Source: Clostridiales bacterium
GTDB taxonomy: Bacteria > Bacillota > Clostridia > Lachnospirales > Lachnospiraceae
Assembly (NCBI GenBank): GCA_021204025.1
Contig: JAJQAC010000004.1
Location: 1-40,857, forward strand
Reading direction: 5' to 3'
DNA: 40,857 bases
Shown here: in pieces, positions 1 to 29,559 of the stretch
Numbering within the stretch: the stretch's first letter is position 1
How the letters are laid out: each line of letters starts with the position of its first letter
Position numbers and translations under genes: made by a program
Notes under the pieces: generated by a model
The model's database searches: none
Seen by the model: the letters and a program-made list of their open reading frames with translations, nothing else
Told to the model about the DNA's origin: nothing

Positions 1-46
1 CAATTTCCTGGTCTGCTGGCATTGTTTTGTCTCAGATTGGCCGTGA

Positions 47-526
47 ATAGTAACAATTAAAGGAAATAGGACGAGAAGCGATCTTGACATTGAACTTTTA
101 GAACGTTTGGAGATGGCCGGTGCGATAGGGATTTCGAATTTGCAGCTTGCCGGTGCCGGAGAGAGCCCCCACAATATTGCCGGAGAGGCGTTATTGAAGT
201 CGTTGGATGAGAGATTTCAATGTCCGGAAGATATTTCGTCAATCGTAGGAGGCCATCACGGGCGTCCGGCGAGCTGGAATACCATCGAAAAACAGCTTAT
301 TGCATATAGGATAAATTATTATCAGACGGAGCATAAGTCAGATTCCCTGTGGCAATTATGGGAGAAGAGCCAGAGGCATATTCTGAACTTGGCACTTGTC
401 CGAGCCGGATTTGAATCAGCCTCAGAGATACCGGTGTTTTCGGTCCCGGGACAGGTACAGGCGCTCGGGTTGCTGACTATGGCAGATTGGATTGCCAGCA
501 ATACGAACTATCATCTACTTGATTAA
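47..526 (+). pseudogene. Cas3 HD-nuclease domain remnant
   Basis: The frame opens after a TGA at 44-46 and ends at a TAA at 524-526; the first usual start is TTG at 107. The translation resembles the second half of the HD nuclease domain of CRISPR-associated Cas3: it has the GGHHGRP histidine pair near residue 48 (counted from TTG) and the late MADWIASN motif near residue 126, which in the family contributes a metal-binding Asp. The first HD motif is absent and no DEAD-box helicase follows, whereas full Cas3 proteins are several times longer. No other cas gene and no repeat-spacer array are visible in the window. I infer a broken type I CRISPR remnant, unlikely to be active. The left window edge is close, but the in-frame stop at 44 argues that the 5' part is lost rather than just cut off. 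A stand-alone Cas3'' of unusual form is less likely. Confidence 0.7.
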
Positions 527-574
527 AGCACCTGAGAAGCACCGGAGCAGACGAAGAACCCGCTCCACATTTAA

Positions 575-709
575 CCTATAGCATTTCCCAAACCAAAAAG
601 CAAGGCTAAGGATATAATTTTAGGAGTAGGAATTTTCCTGATCACGGCAGGAGCCATAAAGCTGATAATTGCACTTATCTTAAGAGCTAGGGGAAGGAAG
701 AACAAATGA
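575..709 (+). pseudogene. Small hydrophobic ORF tail, start codon missing
   Basis: This is an open frame of 44 codons between a TAA at 572-574 and a TGA at 707-709. The translation ends in a single predicted membrane segment (ILGVGIFLITAGAIKLIIAL) followed by a basic tail RARGRKNK. No ATG, GTG or TTG was found in it. Its stop overlaps the ATG of the next gene as ATGA, the arrangement usual for translationally coupled genes, which suggests this was the 3' end of a real gene upstream of the XRE regulator. It may also be chance. No function is assigned. Confidence 0.3.
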
Positions 710-903
710 ACTTTGGAGAAAATTTAAAAAAAGCACGAAAAGCTGCAGGAATACGGCAAGAAGATCTTGCGAAAGAACTAGGGGTTTACGCAAAAGACAT
801 CAGTAGATGGGAGACAGGAGACCGGACGCCGAGTGCTGTGACATTTGGGAAGATATGTCAAATACTCGGAGCATCGGCTGATGAAATACTTGAATTGAAA
901 TGA
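706..903 (+). CDS. XRE-family HTH regulator
   Basis: A 65-aa protein made almost entirely of one Cro/CI-type (HTH_3) DNA-binding domain. Residues 4-60 show the usual pattern: LKKARKAAGIRQEDLAKELG, then the recognition helix region with SRWETGDRTPS, then FGKICQILGASADEIL. The start ATG follows a GGAAGGA ribosome site. Such single-domain proteins usually repress their own or neighbouring genes of mobile elements or toxin systems. Both neighbours are decayed, so its target is unknown. Its stop overlaps the next open frame. Confidence 0.8.
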   Translation: MNFGENLKKARKAAGIRQEDLAKELGVYAKDISRWETGDRTPSAVTFGKICQILGASADEILELK

Positions 904-1196
904 ACATCCGATATGATGGACCGCAGAAAAGGATATTGCGGCCCATCATTGTTTATACACTGTACGGGGGAGAAGGAAAATGTCAGGAGCAGGGTTTGCG
1001 GACGGTGACGCTTTCATTGGGGCGTGAGAAATTTTCCAGTTATCTCTGCAGTGACCGCAGTGCGGTTTCCCGTGAATTGGGGCGCATGAAAAAAGAAAGC
1101 GTGATCTTCCGTTCTCTGTGTTTTGGACGCAATTCTATATGGATTCTTTGTCACGTGCTTTGGATTCTGTTTCAGGGATATAGTATTCCTCAATAA
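900..1196 (+). pseudogene. Crp/Fnr-family HTH remnant
   Basis: This 98-codon frame overlaps the end of the XRE gene. Only about residues 36-70 look like protein: the stretch with LGREKFSSYLCSDRSAVSRE and LGRMKKESVI matches the C-terminal winged helix of Crp/Fnr regulators, which typically reads LADYLxVxRSAxSRELxRMxxEGxI. The cyclic-nucleotide-binding domain that should precede it is absent, and the C-terminal end after residue 70 is unlike the family. I read it as a decayed end of a Crp/Fnr gene joined by chance to an upstream open frame. From 1197 to 1332 I see nothing. Confidence 0.55.
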
Positions 1197-1332
1197 TATG
1201 TTTCATATATCTCCTGATTTTTTGATCTGGGAAACGGCATAATGAATGGCGCGCTGATGTCTGGAAGATATGGTTTGCTGACATTTTGAACCGATCAACA
1301 TAATAATGGTCCTCCGAATGAAATATTTTTAT

Positions 1333-23011: not shown

Positions 23012-23037
23012 TAGACCCATAATAAAAATTACGACTG

Positions 23038-23201
23038 GCAATAGAGGCGCGATGATCAAAAGTATCTGTCCGGAGGCGCGGAGCCGTAGATGGACAGCGA
23101 AAGGGTGATTCGCCGAAACCGATTATTCGTCCGCAGAATATCGAAGTTGGGGTGCAGCTTAAGAGGCTGTACACTCTCACCAAAGGTGGAGGAGCTATTG
23201 C
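23038..23201 (+). ncRNA. Lysine riboswitch (L box)
   Basis: The P1 stem GCAATAG (23038-23044) / CTATTGC (23195-23201) encloses the conserved core of lysine riboswitches: AGAGGCGCGATGATCAAAAG at the start, the P2 stem CTGTCC/GGACAG, CGAAAGGGTGATTCGCCGAA, GTTGGGGTGCAGC, ACTCTCACCAAAGG and TGGAGGAGCTAT at the end. These occur in the order and at about the spacing of the known family. Binding of lysine to such aptamers generally turns downstream genes off by favouring the terminator that follows. Here it lies before an amino-acid symporter and an amidohydrolase. Confidence 0.93.
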
Positions 23202-23226
23202 TTCATTTTTATGATTATGAGATGAG

Positions 23227-26552: not shown

Positions 26553-26591
26553 TGCTAAGTCTCAGAGTAAAACCTGTGGCTTAGCATTTTT
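26553..26591 (+). terminator. Terminator of the symporter-amidohydrolase operon
   Basis: TGCTAAG (26553-26559) pairs with CTTAGCA (26580-26586), followed by TTTTT (26587-26591). AAAAA upstream can extend the stem with a bulge. It directly adjoins the repeat element that starts at 26591. Confidence 0.75.
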
Positions 26592-26683
26592 ATGCGCAGG
26601 GCCGGGTAAGGAATTTTTGCGGTTGATGCCGCACCCGGCCCGCGCGGAGAGTAGGATGCGAAAAAGCTGCCTCCTACTCGATT
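26591..26683 (+). repeat. 93-bp structured element, copy A
   Basis: This copy aligns without gaps to 29467-29559 at 72 of 93 bases. Hairpin 1: GGGCCGGGT (26599-26607) pairs with ACCCGGCCC (26633-26641), enclosing a conserved TTTTGC loop and a small GCGG/CCGC stem. Hairpin 2: GAGTAGGA (26649-26656) pairs with TCCTACTC (26672-26679), enclosing a conserved GCGAAAAAGC loop, followed by conserved CGATT. It starts right after the terminator of the amidohydrolase gene, and the kinase promoter follows at 26733. I know no family name for it. The strand is arbitrary. Confidence 0.75.
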
Positions 26684-26732
26684 GGTTGGTGCAGGGAGTG
26701 TCAGGGAAAGGATTAGATCTTCCGATGTGGGA

Positions 26733-26761
26733 TTGCGTGAAATTCGAAAATTATGTATACT
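26733..26761 (+). promoter_or_regulatory. Sigma-A promoter of the histidine kinase
   Basis: TTGCGT (26733-26738) and TATACT (26756-26761), spacer 17 bp. The leader would be about 140 nt, holding a GTTACtgGTAAC hairpin near 26855. Confidence 0.6.
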
Positions 26762-26906
26762 ATAGGAATCAGAGTCAGTATTAAATTTGGTATCAGTTTC
26801 TAATTGGTATTATGAAGCGTATGCCGGTACAAGAGTTCCTGAGAGGGAGGGACACGGGTTACTGGTAACGCGGCTTTTTCTAAATCGGACACAGGCATGG
26901 TGACTT

Positions 26907-28313
26907 ATGAAACATTCTCTTTACATAAAATTCCTTTTGGGATATCTCATTTTCGGTCTTCTGGGATTTGCCGTGATCTCAACCGTTTTCGCACAGGTTC
27001 TGCAGGATCAGGAGGTAAGCGTGCAGGCGGAGTCTCTGTATGATGAGGCCAATATCATCGCCTCGGAGTTCAGCAGCCTGTACCAGGGAAAACGCCAGGA
27101 TTCCACTATGGTATATTCCGGGATTGAAGCGATTGCGGAGTGTCTGAACGCGGATATCTGGATCGTCAACCGTTACGGCGTGATTGTAACCAAAAGCAGT
27201 TCGCCCGGCGAGACCGGGATTGAGATTGAAAATTTCGATCCTGCGGCGATGGGAAATCAGCATTATATGATCGGAGATTATTTTGGTCAGTTTCAGGAAG
27301 AGGTGATCAGCGCGTCCGCGCCGATTACCGGCAATTATAATACGTATGGCTACGTCGTGATTCACCTGCCGATGTCAGAGGCAGTTACAAGAGGTTATCA
27401 CAATCTGAACCTTTTTTATATCTGCGGGCTGGTGATCTTTATTTTGTCGCTGATTATTTTGATCATTTTTACAACGACGGTTTATCTGCCGCTGCTGCGG
27501 ATCACAGAAGGAGCAAAGCAGTACGCGGCCGGTAATCTGGATTATCAGATTAAAGCAGATACCCACGATGAGATGGGATATCTGGCAGCGACGTTAAATT
27601 ATATGTCGGATGAACTGAATAAGATGGAGGAATATCAGCGCGCGTTTGTGGCGAATGTTTCCCATGATTTCCGGTCGCCGCTCACATCGATCAAAGGGTA
27701 TCTGGAAGCCATTCTGGATGGTACGATCGCACCTGAGATGCAGGAAAAATATCTGCGCCGGGTTATTTCCGAGACAGAGCGGCTGAATAAACTGACGCAG
27801 GATCTGCTGACGCTCAATTCGATGGAGAGTAAGGGTTATCTGAACCGGAGCAATTTTGATATTAACCGCGTCATCAAGGATACAGCGGCTTCCTTTGAGG
27901 TCACCTGCATGGAGAAAGATATTACGTTTGACTTAACATTTTCTGACAATATTGAAATGGTTTATGCAGATCTTGGAAAAATTCAGCAGGTGTTGTATAA
28001 TCTAATTGACAATGCAATTAAATTCAGTCACCAGGGAGCGACTATATTTATTCAGTCTTATATGAGATCCGGAAAGATTTATATCTCGGTGAAAGATACC
28101 GGAATCGGTATTCCCAAAGAAAGTATTAAGAAAATATGGGATCGTTTTTATAAGACGGACAGCTCCCGGGGAAAGGATAAAAAAGGAACGGGACTGGGTC
28201 TGGCGATTGTAAAGGAGATTATTCAGGCACATGAAGAGACGATCGATGTGATCAGCACAAAAGACGTGGGAACAGAATTTATCTTTACACTGCCGCGTGC
28301 AGTTGAGCGATAG
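26907..28313 (+). CDS. HAMP sensor histidine kinase
   Basis: A 468-aa membrane sensor kinase. One helix (about 7-29), an extracytoplasmic sensing domain (30-165), a second helix (about 168-192), a HAMP linker (192-245), the dimerisation domain with the phosphorylated His253 in FVANVSHDFRSPLTSIKGYL, and an ATPase domain with NLIDNAIKFS (N box), DTGIGIPKE (G1) and GTGLGLAIVKEI (G2). It phosphorylates a response regulator upon an unknown envelope signal. No regulator gene adjoins it; the nearest is the OmpR-type gene at 29597-30313, facing it from beyond one secreted-protein gene, and it is the likely partner. The start follows a weak GGTGA site. Confidence 0.92.
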   Translation: MKHSLYIKFLLGYLIFGLLGFAVISTVFAQVLQDQEVSVQAESLYDEANIIASEFSSLYQGKRQDSTMVYSGIEAIAECLNADIWIVNRYGVIVTKSSSPGETGIEIENFDPAAMGNQHYMIGDYFGQFQEEVISASAPITGNYNTYGYVVIHLPMSEAVTRGYHNLNLFYICGLVIFILSLIILIIFTTTVYLPLLRITEGAKQYAAGNLDYQIKADTHDEMGYLAATLNYMSDELNKMEEYQRAFVANVSHDFRSPLTSIKGYLEAILDGTIAPEMQEKYLRRVISETERLNKLTQDLLTLNSMESKGYLNRSNFDINRVIKDTAASFEVTCMEKDITFDLTFSDNIEMVYADLGKIQQVLYNLIDNAIKFSHQGATIFIQSYMRSGKIYISVKDTGIGIPKESIKKIWDRFYKTDSSRGKDKKGTGLGLAIVKEIIQAHEETIDVISTKDVGTEFIFTLPRAVER

Positions 28314-28443
28314 CAGGAAGTGTGGATCGGGAAGAGAGGATGGAAGAATGTGAATCGCAGCAAGTTGGGCAGGAGGCAGCTTTTTGCGTCATAGCCGAAA
28401 AACATTTTACCCGGCTCTGCGCATGAGAGGAAAGGAGTGGGAT

Positions 28444-29358
28444 ATGATGAGGTACGCAGAGATCATGACGGAAATAAAAGAACGTAAAAATCATAAAAGA
28501 ATGTGCCAGGGTGCGGCAGTGAGACTGATAGCTGCATCTGTCATTGCAGTGGTATTGTCTCTGGCTCAGGCAGGGCCGCTGCCGGTTACGGCGTGGGCGG
28601 CGACGGATTCCTCAGATGTGACAGAGGCAGATCTGGAGATGACCGGCCTGCGATGGAATGAATCCAGTGGAACTGCCCGTTGGGATAAGAACGCATACGC
28701 ATATAAATACGAAGTCAAGCTGTATCGTGGCAGCAGCTGTAAAGCGACAAAGACGACAAAGGAAACCTATTATGAGTTTGGCAATTATTTTACGACTTCC
28801 GGGGATTATCATTTTGAAGTGAGGGGAGTTGGACAGAATTCCGTTGTCGGCGAGTGGGTGAGTTCGGATCTGTGGTATGTGTCGTCATCGGAAGCGAGAG
28901 ATATCCGGGATGATTATGACGATGATGATGACGATTACAGCAGCGGCACGGCAGACGTCAATCACGGACCGGGAGTGACAGGAACTTATTCGTATAGTTA
29001 TTCTTATGGACCCGGCGGAGCGAGCTCATCGACATCGACCAGCGGTGTCGTCGAGCAGGGCGTAGGAGTCGTGACATACGGCAGTTCCACGGTCGGAGCG
29101 GCGACTTACGGTGGGAATCACTGGTGCCAGGACGGGTATGGCTGGTGGTATCAATACGCGGATGGGACCTATCCGAAAAACTGCTGGCAGTGTATCGATG
29201 GAAAATATTACTGTTTTAATTCGGATGGATACCGGCGCTATGGCTGGATCTACTGGGATAATAAATGGTATTATTGCGGAGAAGATGGTGCGTTGCTGGG
29301 CGATACCTATACACCGGACGGATATTATGTCGGTTCGGACGGAGTGTGGGTGCAGTAA
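28444..29358 (+). CDS. Secreted choline-binding-repeat protein
   Basis: A 304-aa exported protein. A long N-terminal region (25 basic residues, then a hydrophobic stretch AAVRLIAASVIAVVLSLAQA) acts as a signal peptide, with a likely cut after AWA. Residues 60-155 form a fibronectin-like beta domain (KYEVKLYRGSSCKATKTTKE then YYEF). A low-complexity linker follows (DDYDDDDDDY; TYSYSYSYGPGG; Ser-rich). The C-terminus carries aromatic cell-wall-binding repeats (GYGWWYQYADGTYPKN, CIDGKYYCFNSDGYR, GWIYWDNKWYYCGEDG) of the choline-binding type. Start at ATG 28444 or 28447 after AAAGGAG. It follows the kinase by 130 bp on the same strand and may report its regulon; the function is unknown. Confidence 0.85.
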   Translation: MMRYAEIMTEIKERKNHKRMCQGAAVRLIAASVIAVVLSLAQAGPLPVTAWAATDSSDVTEADLEMTGLRWNESSGTARWDKNAYAYKYEVKLYRGSSCKATKTTKETYYEFGNYFTTSGDYHFEVRGVGQNSVVGEWVSSDLWYVSSSEARDIRDDYDDDDDDYSSGTADVNHGPGVTGTYSYSYSYGPGGASSSTSTSGVVEQGVGVVTYGSSTVGAATYGGNHWCQDGYGWWYQYADGTYPKNCWQCIDGKYYCFNSDGYRRYGWIYWDNKWYYCGEDGALLGDTYTPDGYYVGSDGVWVQ

Positions 29359-29415
29359 GGAGATTATAACTGATGGTGAAAATTCAGAGGGTCAGGTAAA
29401 AGTGATACAGGGTTG

Positions 29416-29464
29416 AAAATGGCATCTTTCAATGGTGGATGAATGCGTTGGAAGATGCCATTTT
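29416..29464 (+). terminator. Terminator of the choline-binding-repeat gene
   Basis: AAAATGGCATCTT (29416-29428) and AAGATGCCATTTT (29452-29464) are perfect 13-bp arms with a T-run in the right arm. The palindrome could also serve leftward for the response regulator gene. The repeat element begins 3 bp later. Confidence 0.8.
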
Positions 29465-29466
29465 AT

Positions 29467-29559
29467 TATGCACACGGGCGGATCTGGAAATTTTGCAGTT
29501 AACGCTGCATCCGCCCGGCGCAGCGATTATGAGGCGAAAAAGCCGCCTCTTACTCGATT
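29467..29559 (+). repeat. 93-bp structured element, copy B
   Basis: This is the partner of 26591-26683. Hairpin 1: CGGGCGGAT (29475-29483) pairs with ATCCGCCCG (29509-29517), enclosing TTTTGC and a GCAG/CTGC stem. Hairpin 2: the perfect inner stem GAGGCG (29531-29536) / CGCCTC (29544-29549) with loop AAAAAGC, a less regular outer stem, then ACTCGATT. Compared with copy A, the paired positions 9/51, 12/48, 16/44 and 31/40 of the element all change together and remain paired. It sits between convergent genes, right after a terminator, as does copy A. The strand is arbitrary. Confidence 0.75.

Follow-up and report, generated by a model that had tools for sequence, protein, structure and literature searches.

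A probably mobile family of short folded repeats immediately 3' of intrinsic terminators in Lachnospiraceae

Two related elements follow terminators in the window

The window analysed here is a 40,857-nucleotide stretch of a Lachnospiraceae genome (Clostridiales bacterium, GenBank assembly GCA_021204025.1, contig JAJQAC010000004.1, positions 1 to 40,857). It carries an amidohydrolase gene and a gene for a choline-binding-repeat protein, each of which is followed by a terminator stem-loop and then by one copy of a short folded repeat, the element that is the subject of this study (Table 1). We consider it very likely that these copies belong to a real family of mobile, folded elements that target terminators. 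The original prediction, made from the sequence of the window, had aligned the two copies without a gap over 93 bp at 72 identities; we recomputed this alignment with the same result, and the next best ungapped 93-mer match on either strand of the window reaches 45/93. It had also reported four compensated base pairs, all of which check out (element positions 9/51, G-C to C-G; 12/48, C-G to G-C; 16/44 and 31/40, both G-C to A-T). When compared to dinucleotide shuffles, the plus strands of the two copies fold far more stably as RNA, with z scores of -6.2 and -4.9, and the minus strands fold similarly (z -5.9 and -4.8). The predicted placement after an intrinsic terminator stood as well, in that each copy lies directly 3' of a long stem and T-run. 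Both of these stems were missed by a simple terminator scan because one has a mismatch and the other an 11-nt loop, which fall outside the rules of the scan.

Table 1. Coordinates of the two window copies, their hairpins and the adjoining terminators, with home-genome sites that carry another subfamily in the sister species
Feature	Position	Strand	Remarks
Terminator stem-loop	26551..26588	+	3' of amidohydrolase gene (PF07969); T-run abutted by copy 1; z -5.0
Copy 1	26591..26683	+	TATGCGCA ... CTCGATT; covariance model 114.2 bits
Copy 1 hairpin 1	26594..26645	+	11-nt 5' bulge at 26608-26618; predicted fold
Copy 1 hairpin 2	26649..26679	+	GAGTAGGA ... TCCTACTC; predicted fold
Terminator stem-loop	29416..29464	+	3' of choline-binding-repeat protein gene (Pfam Choline_bind); T-run abutted by copy 2; z -6.8
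Copy 2	29467..29559	+	covariance model 102.2 bits; orthologous G006 site empty
Copy 2 hairpin 1	29469..29522	+	11-nt 5' bulge; predicted fold
Copy 2 hairpin 2	29524..29556	+	predicted fold
Sites with other subfamily in G006	C27:115163, C38:17091, C41:36077, C26:15464, C45:44884

Distribution of the family

A BLAST search of the home genome (G000; 3.04 Mb in 91 contigs) with copy 1 returned 53 pieces at E<=10, and of the 126 matches that a covariance model built from 40 home copies (R1) gave at E<=1, 51 score 75 bits or more. Across 61 genomes, the home genome and 60 relatives, R1 found a match at E<=0.001 in 14. These comprise the home genome with at least 70 matches, G013 and the sister species G006 with 65 each, and G008, G010, G012, G020-G023, G027, G034, G036 and G043 with 1 to 18 each, those in G012, G020, G021 and G034 being weak (best E above 1e-4). 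With stricter filters, no R1 match at E<=0.001 was present in 47 of the 61 genomes, including 14 of the 24 from the same genus. A second model (R2), derived from copies outside the home genome and used to score 14 candidates per genome, was applied to 299 genomes of the family, sampled at almost one per genus, and detected the element at E<=1e-5 in 67 of them, home included. These E-values are rough, and weak matches (E near 1e-4 for R1 and near 1e-5 for R2) may include chance ones. Running the covariance-model check that had been proposed for the two window copies yielded many further copies elsewhere, with covariation and with no known family attached to them.

A pattern scan of named genomes recovered at least 114 stretches. 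Among the 80 named loci listed, titles are mostly those of Lachnospiraceae or genera thereof (Butyrivibrio, Roseburia, Dorea, Hungatella, Lachnotalea and Agathobacter); the other titles, given here as recorded and unchecked, read Eubacterium, Clostridium, Clostridiales, Bacillus, Ruminococcus, Clostridiaceae and uncultured bacterium. Genome G344 holds at least 14 closely similar copies at 14 places, one of which (C139:5741) is more divergent. Among the ten G027 copies listed, five different terminators are followed by near-identical copies, and two pairs share identical flanks and may be assembly duplicates. The close similarity of the G344 and G027 copies suggests recent activity. Seven pattern matches in viral contigs were set aside as chance, since the inspected stretches, by eye, contain the short motif but no element, and a blastn search of plasmids and phages with copy 1 only gave no match at E<=1e-5.

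A covarying two-hairpin fold

Each unit starts with TATGCRCA, continues through hairpin 1, with its ~11-nt bulge (GGAA), and hairpin 2, and ends in CTACTCGAT(T). It measures ~81-94 bp, with longer forms of ~140-190 bp, and its conserved unpaired parts are the leader TATGCRCA, the bulge (GGAA in most rows) and the tail GAT. We assessed the predicted fold in two alignments. The first (A3) contains 97 R1 matches from 78 of the 80 listed named loci, L207 and L257 being the two without a match, and was aligned by fitting to R1. In it, 94.5% of cells are paired and two-sided changes occur in 20 of 25 pairs; they fill 377 cells where shuffles average 104, and none of 500 shuffles reaches that number. 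For the second (A4), 66 sequences located by R1, of which 63 come from named loci, two are the window copies and one is from G027, were aligned with MAFFT, and the alignment folds into the same two hairpins. With the structure of A4 set by hand, 91.6% of cells pair and two-sided changes in 16 of 22 pairs exceed all shuffles; they include all eight outer pairs of hairpin 1. One pair named by hand, columns 31/47, is unsupported, 52 of the 66 rows being unpaired there, and shifting the pair partners lowers pairing to 36-50%. The home genome copies alone show two-sided changes in 10 of 27 pairs. Since the named loci were picked by a pattern inside hairpin 2, the invariance of the foot of this hairpin in A3 and A4 arises partly by construction, a bias of which hairpin 1 is free. 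On this comparative evidence the predicted fold is maintained by compensatory change, and the selection on the fold that had been proposed from two copies finds support in covariation across species.

G-U outnumbers A-C by 24:13 in hairpin 1 and 37:12 in hairpin 2 of A4 and by 20:14, hardly an excess, in alignment A2. Counted column by column inside a hairpin, the excess does not reach significance, so that it argues only faintly for a single functional strand.

As a separate observation on hairpin 1, at least six home copies carry a GC-rich module, ~100 bp at its longest, at nearly the same place in the 3' arm: C30:12464-12566 (L046), C27:120981 (L048), C39:73630 (L050), C66:82748-82938 (L308:749-939), C66:70023 (L120) and the second unit of C15:40169. 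Inserts related to this module occur at C51:105384 and C83:10685, and split model matches suggest more.

Landing site and insertion

To describe the landing site we took, from all loci collected, the 168 distinct first units that open with the motif T[AG]TG and carry the end motif, leaving out second units and copies starting GATG, AATG, CATG or TATCGCAG. A strong hairpin, defined by a score >=18 and an end <=16 nt upstream of the unit, precedes 145 of these 168 units. The same definition finds such a hairpin in 6 of 168 shuffled upstream sequences and at 102 of 2000 T-runs sampled from the 27169 in the same, partly overlapping loci. At least three of the last four bases before the unit are T in 152 of 168 cases, the share of T at these positions being 80, 92, 89 and 82%, and at the other end CTCGAT is followed by T in 126. 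Judged from their sequence, the upstream features are intrinsic terminators and the element follows them in sense orientation. In G344, each of the 14 sites lies by eye beside a hairpin-like T-rich end, 11 of which score >=18. The elements at L203:1367-1703 and L256:2871-3229 stand just 3' of T-box leaders and before the next gene, so that conditional terminators are used too.

Comparison of filled and empty sites locates the junctions. The G006 counterpart of the copy 2 site is empty and reads CATTTTAT/ATATGCC, against CATTTTAT - 93 bp - ATATGCC in the home genome. In a duplicated region of G344 (94% identical over 187 bases), one paralogue is filled (CCTTTT - element - AAGATG) and the other empty (CCTTTT/AAAATG). 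In both of these precise cases the insertion spans TATG...CTCGAT and one further T, which is ambiguous; beyond this T, the two filled/empty pairs reveal no target duplication. Clean insertion at the 3' edge of the T-run is what is seen in these two cases. A 2-bp TA target duplication was considered and rejected, as few right flanks start with TA by eye and the two precise empty sites are better explained with no such duplication.

Six further home sites were compared with G006, of which three lack the element there, with blurred junctions, and two gave no usable comparison. At the counterpart of the sixth, C61:31595, G006 carries a different, longer relative. At five other sites (Table 1) it carries another subfamily at what is, by eye from the flanks, apparently the same place. 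Different subfamilies at orthologous sites fit repeated insertion at the same terminator.

Other repeats were met in these comparisons. One, a dispersed repeat of ~165 bp (L309:10097-10265) with many matches in G006, matches at G006 C116:55393-55554, just beyond the empty site of copy 2. Another, of ~104 bp (e.g. C98:3559), has more than 20 copies in G344 and lies upstream of one element copy there. A third repeat family contains the palindrome CATAGGAAAGTGCGTCCTATG (L041, L078, L145, L147, L150, L161 and L313), and in G013 several elements stand directly before this repeat, 3' of a recurrent terminator-like stretch such as AGAATCCTGCAAAGCAGGATTCTTT.

Tandem arrays

Many copies continue head to tail into further, often truncated units, joined as CTCGAT-TGCACAGG in most other genomes inspected and as CTCGAT-CRCAGG in the home genome. 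Several home arrays mix subfamilies in neighbouring units (e.g. C15:40169, C27:144987 and C73:3277), for which simple tandem duplication is an insufficient account. The first unit has the higher bit score in 28 adjacent pairs, hand-picked among the matches listed, its score gaining from the additional TATG; once the first five columns are dropped, it is closer in identity to the consensus than its neighbour in 10 of 14 pairs, equally close in 1 and less close in 3. At least four loci (C77, C26:59718, G013 C32 and G008 C22) have a unit remnant upstream of a fuller unit. Because a polarity with the newest unit beside the T-run weakens once the leader is removed, and is reversed at some loci, we place no reliance on it.

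Known families and candidate machinery

Rfam 15, applied to the whole window at gathering score, finds a lysine riboswitch at 23034-23205 (+) (RF00168, 87.9 bits) and nothing on the element, and among 17 loci scanned no match at gathering score overlaps an element. Permissive scans of copy 1 returned two weak matches, both below their gathering scores of 59.5 and 40: naRNA4, a REP-derived RNA (repetitive extragenic palindrome), scored 20.1 bits (E 1.9) and AS-pc02 scored 14.4 bits (E 2.4). Permissive scans of other elements gave no match on an element. In a literature search, mostly of titles and the openings of abstracts and with few subscription papers, we recognised no description of the family.

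Two protein domains were followed as markers of the machinery that a REP-like element (Y1 transposase) or a retro-element (reverse transcriptase) should have. Y1_Tnp occurs at two places only in the home genome, each split over two frames with stops, and open Y1 frames are present in the same-genus genomes G001, G002, G011 and G016, all of them without an element match. The home genome has one RVT_1 match, which belongs to the remnant of a group II intron lying at the end of a contig (L059, G000 C23, ~1-1297, minus strand). This remnant gave the only group II matches in the Rfam scans, in which none fell on any element scanned. The best PDB match of its reverse transcriptase (RT) is the GsI-IIC RT (6ar1) and the fourth is 7uim, presumably the Eubacterium rectale maturase; NCBIfam assigns it to group_II_RT_mat. 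Group II introns start with GUGYG and, if the remnant begins at its GTGCG, its 5' flank consists of a terminator-like hairpin followed by TTTTTTATG, the four-letter leader of the element. These shared letters are no more than suggestive. No pairing of the A-rich loop with either the T-run or the bulge is conserved by eye.

Interpretation and alternatives

Among the three candidates that had been offered for the window copies (a dispersed mobile palindrome, a processed RNA 3' end and a small RNA family), empty and filled sites together with closely similar copies at unrelated terminators favour a dispersed mobile element. We think that this is probably a non-autonomous mobile family, joined in as a folded strand by a terminator-recognising enzyme that acts in trans. 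Such an enzyme, or a ribonucleoprotein, would treat the stem-loop and short T-rich spacer of the terminator as a structured DNA target, in a manner resembling that of group IIC intron particles, and would join in the element as a folded single strand, either RNA or single-stranded DNA (ssDNA), without target duplication. Terminators would be safe sites, with the proposed consequence that copies accumulate there, and occupied sites could be hit again to give head-to-tail arrays. A more speculative extension, which we regard as possible but doubtful, is that minimal retro- or ssDNA elements hitch-hike throughout the family on machinery that reads terminators as structured DNA, as a bacterial counterpart of short interspersed nuclear elements (SINEs) that depend on a terminator-specific retroelement, and that they have inserted repeatedly at the same terminators over evolution.

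Several points weigh against mobility by such an enzyme. No partner gene was found, and across the 61 genomes, which are drafts in which absence is not proof, neither Y1_Tnp nor RVT_1 tracks with copy number: G034 and G036 match neither domain, and in G006, where the element has 65 matches, a fragment of Y1 and a single weak RT were found. The element itself has by eye no intron-like catalytic parts and matches no Rfam family at gathering score. By the score used, 23 of the 168 first units lack a strong hairpin, and some sites, for example upstream of minus-strand genes, are T-rich with no hairpin by eye. Only two junctions are precise; at C66:82748, C66:90721 and C66:99286 the element is absent in G006 but the junctions are blurred, and gene conversion could also explain the different subfamilies at orthologous G000 and G006 sites. 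The shuffle controls preserve base content and not sequence relatedness, and the strand asymmetry that a folded single strand should show is weak.

A group IIC intron RT/maturase acting in trans would make the element a parasite of group IIC introns, and both use the same kind of target, a stem-loop and T-rich spacer in sense orientation; the home intron remnant, with its GsI-IIC-like RT and its position after a terminator hairpin and, given a GTGCG start, the leader letters, adds to this case. We nonetheless hold it to be unlikely, since carriers without an RVT_1 match exist among the drafts (G034, 86% complete, G036, G043 and G020, the last with weak element matches) and no family-wide conserved stretch able to pair with the T-run is apparent by eye. 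An origin akin to REPs or IS200/IS605, in which an HUH (Y1) transposase such as TnpA-REP moves ssDNA by recognising hairpins, appears unlikely. It would suit hairpins near both ends, the lack of target duplication, a T-rich target, fixed orientation and head-to-tail arrays, and IS200/IS605 and TnpA-REP are described as acting on folded single strands (PMC8266576). The minus strand of hairpin 2 begins with GAGTAGGAGGC, recalling GTAG-tagged REPs, and naRNA4 was the best permissive Rfam match on copy 1, though far below its gathering score. Against this, Y1 does not co-occur with the element across the 61 drafts, and the GTAG lies within a paired stem of a two-hairpin unit, whereas a REP is defined as a 20-40 bp palindrome with GTAG at one end (PMC3733652); this survey of GTAG/CGTC REPs does not contain the words Firmicutes or Clostridi.

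A non-mobile cellular RNA element, be it a processing signal in the 3' untranslated region, a small RNA or a terminator accessory, could be kept at gene 3' ends by selection, and this would account for the strong conservation of the fold, the constant position after terminators and the copies between T-box leader and gene in L203 and L256, where a read-through transcript would carry them. The sequence comparisons make it quite improbable, given empty sites in a sister species and in a paralogue, the 14 of 24 genus genomes without a match, different subfamilies at orthologous sites, and truncated and degraded copies. Still further down in our estimation, and barely credible, is a classical miniature inverted-repeat transposable element (MITE), on whose terminal inverted repeats a DDE transposase would act: the family is short, palindromic and multicopy, but its ends, TATGCRCAG and CTACTCGAT, are by eye not inverted repeats of each other, and in the two filled/empty pairs target duplication never exceeds one base.

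Dispersed folded repeats are known in many bacteria; here, a fold supported by covariation is tied to one landing place, the end of a T-run. This raises the testable question of what enzyme takes a terminator for its DNA target, and whether RNA or ssDNA is the form that it moves. If group IIC machinery were responsible, the two would form a bacterial pair resembling SINEs and long interspersed nuclear elements (LINEs). Many terminators also acquire structured sequence downstream through these elements, which at two or more loci separate a T-box leader from the gene that follows; the elements may therefore matter for the annotation of gut bacteria and the reading of RNA sequencing (RNA-seq) data.

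Comparison with known systems

Group IIC introns prefer transcription terminators. In the solved complex of such an intron, the target DNA is recognised by a stem-loop, a short spacer, the sequence CTTT as intron-binding site 1 (IBS1) and, immediately 3' of the point of insertion, a T (PMC10190682); the word terminator is absent from that paper. Group IIC introns (e.g. that of Eubacterium rectale, MarathonRT) and the element share insertion after a DNA stem-loop and a short T-rich stretch in fixed orientation. The element differs from them in its length of ~90 bp, its lack of an open reading frame (ORF) and of an Rfam group II match, and its different ends. With REPs and bacterial interspersed mosaic elements (BIMEs), which are associated with TnpA-REP (REP-associated tyrosine transposase, RAYT), it shares the character of a short palindromic extragenic repeat present in many copies, single or tandem, together with the REP-like GTAG inside hairpin 2 on the minus strand. 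It is set apart from REPs by two different hairpins per ~90-bp unit, the conserved GGAA bulge, its targeting of terminators and the absence of tracking with Y1. The pneumococcal BOX, RUP and SPRITE are small interspersed repeats with folded transcripts, SPRITE lying near gene 3' ends (PMC3049150). Inverted ends and target duplications, which characterise BOX and RUP, are not seen at the two junctions of the element, and SPRITE itself resembles a terminator, whereas the element follows a separate one.

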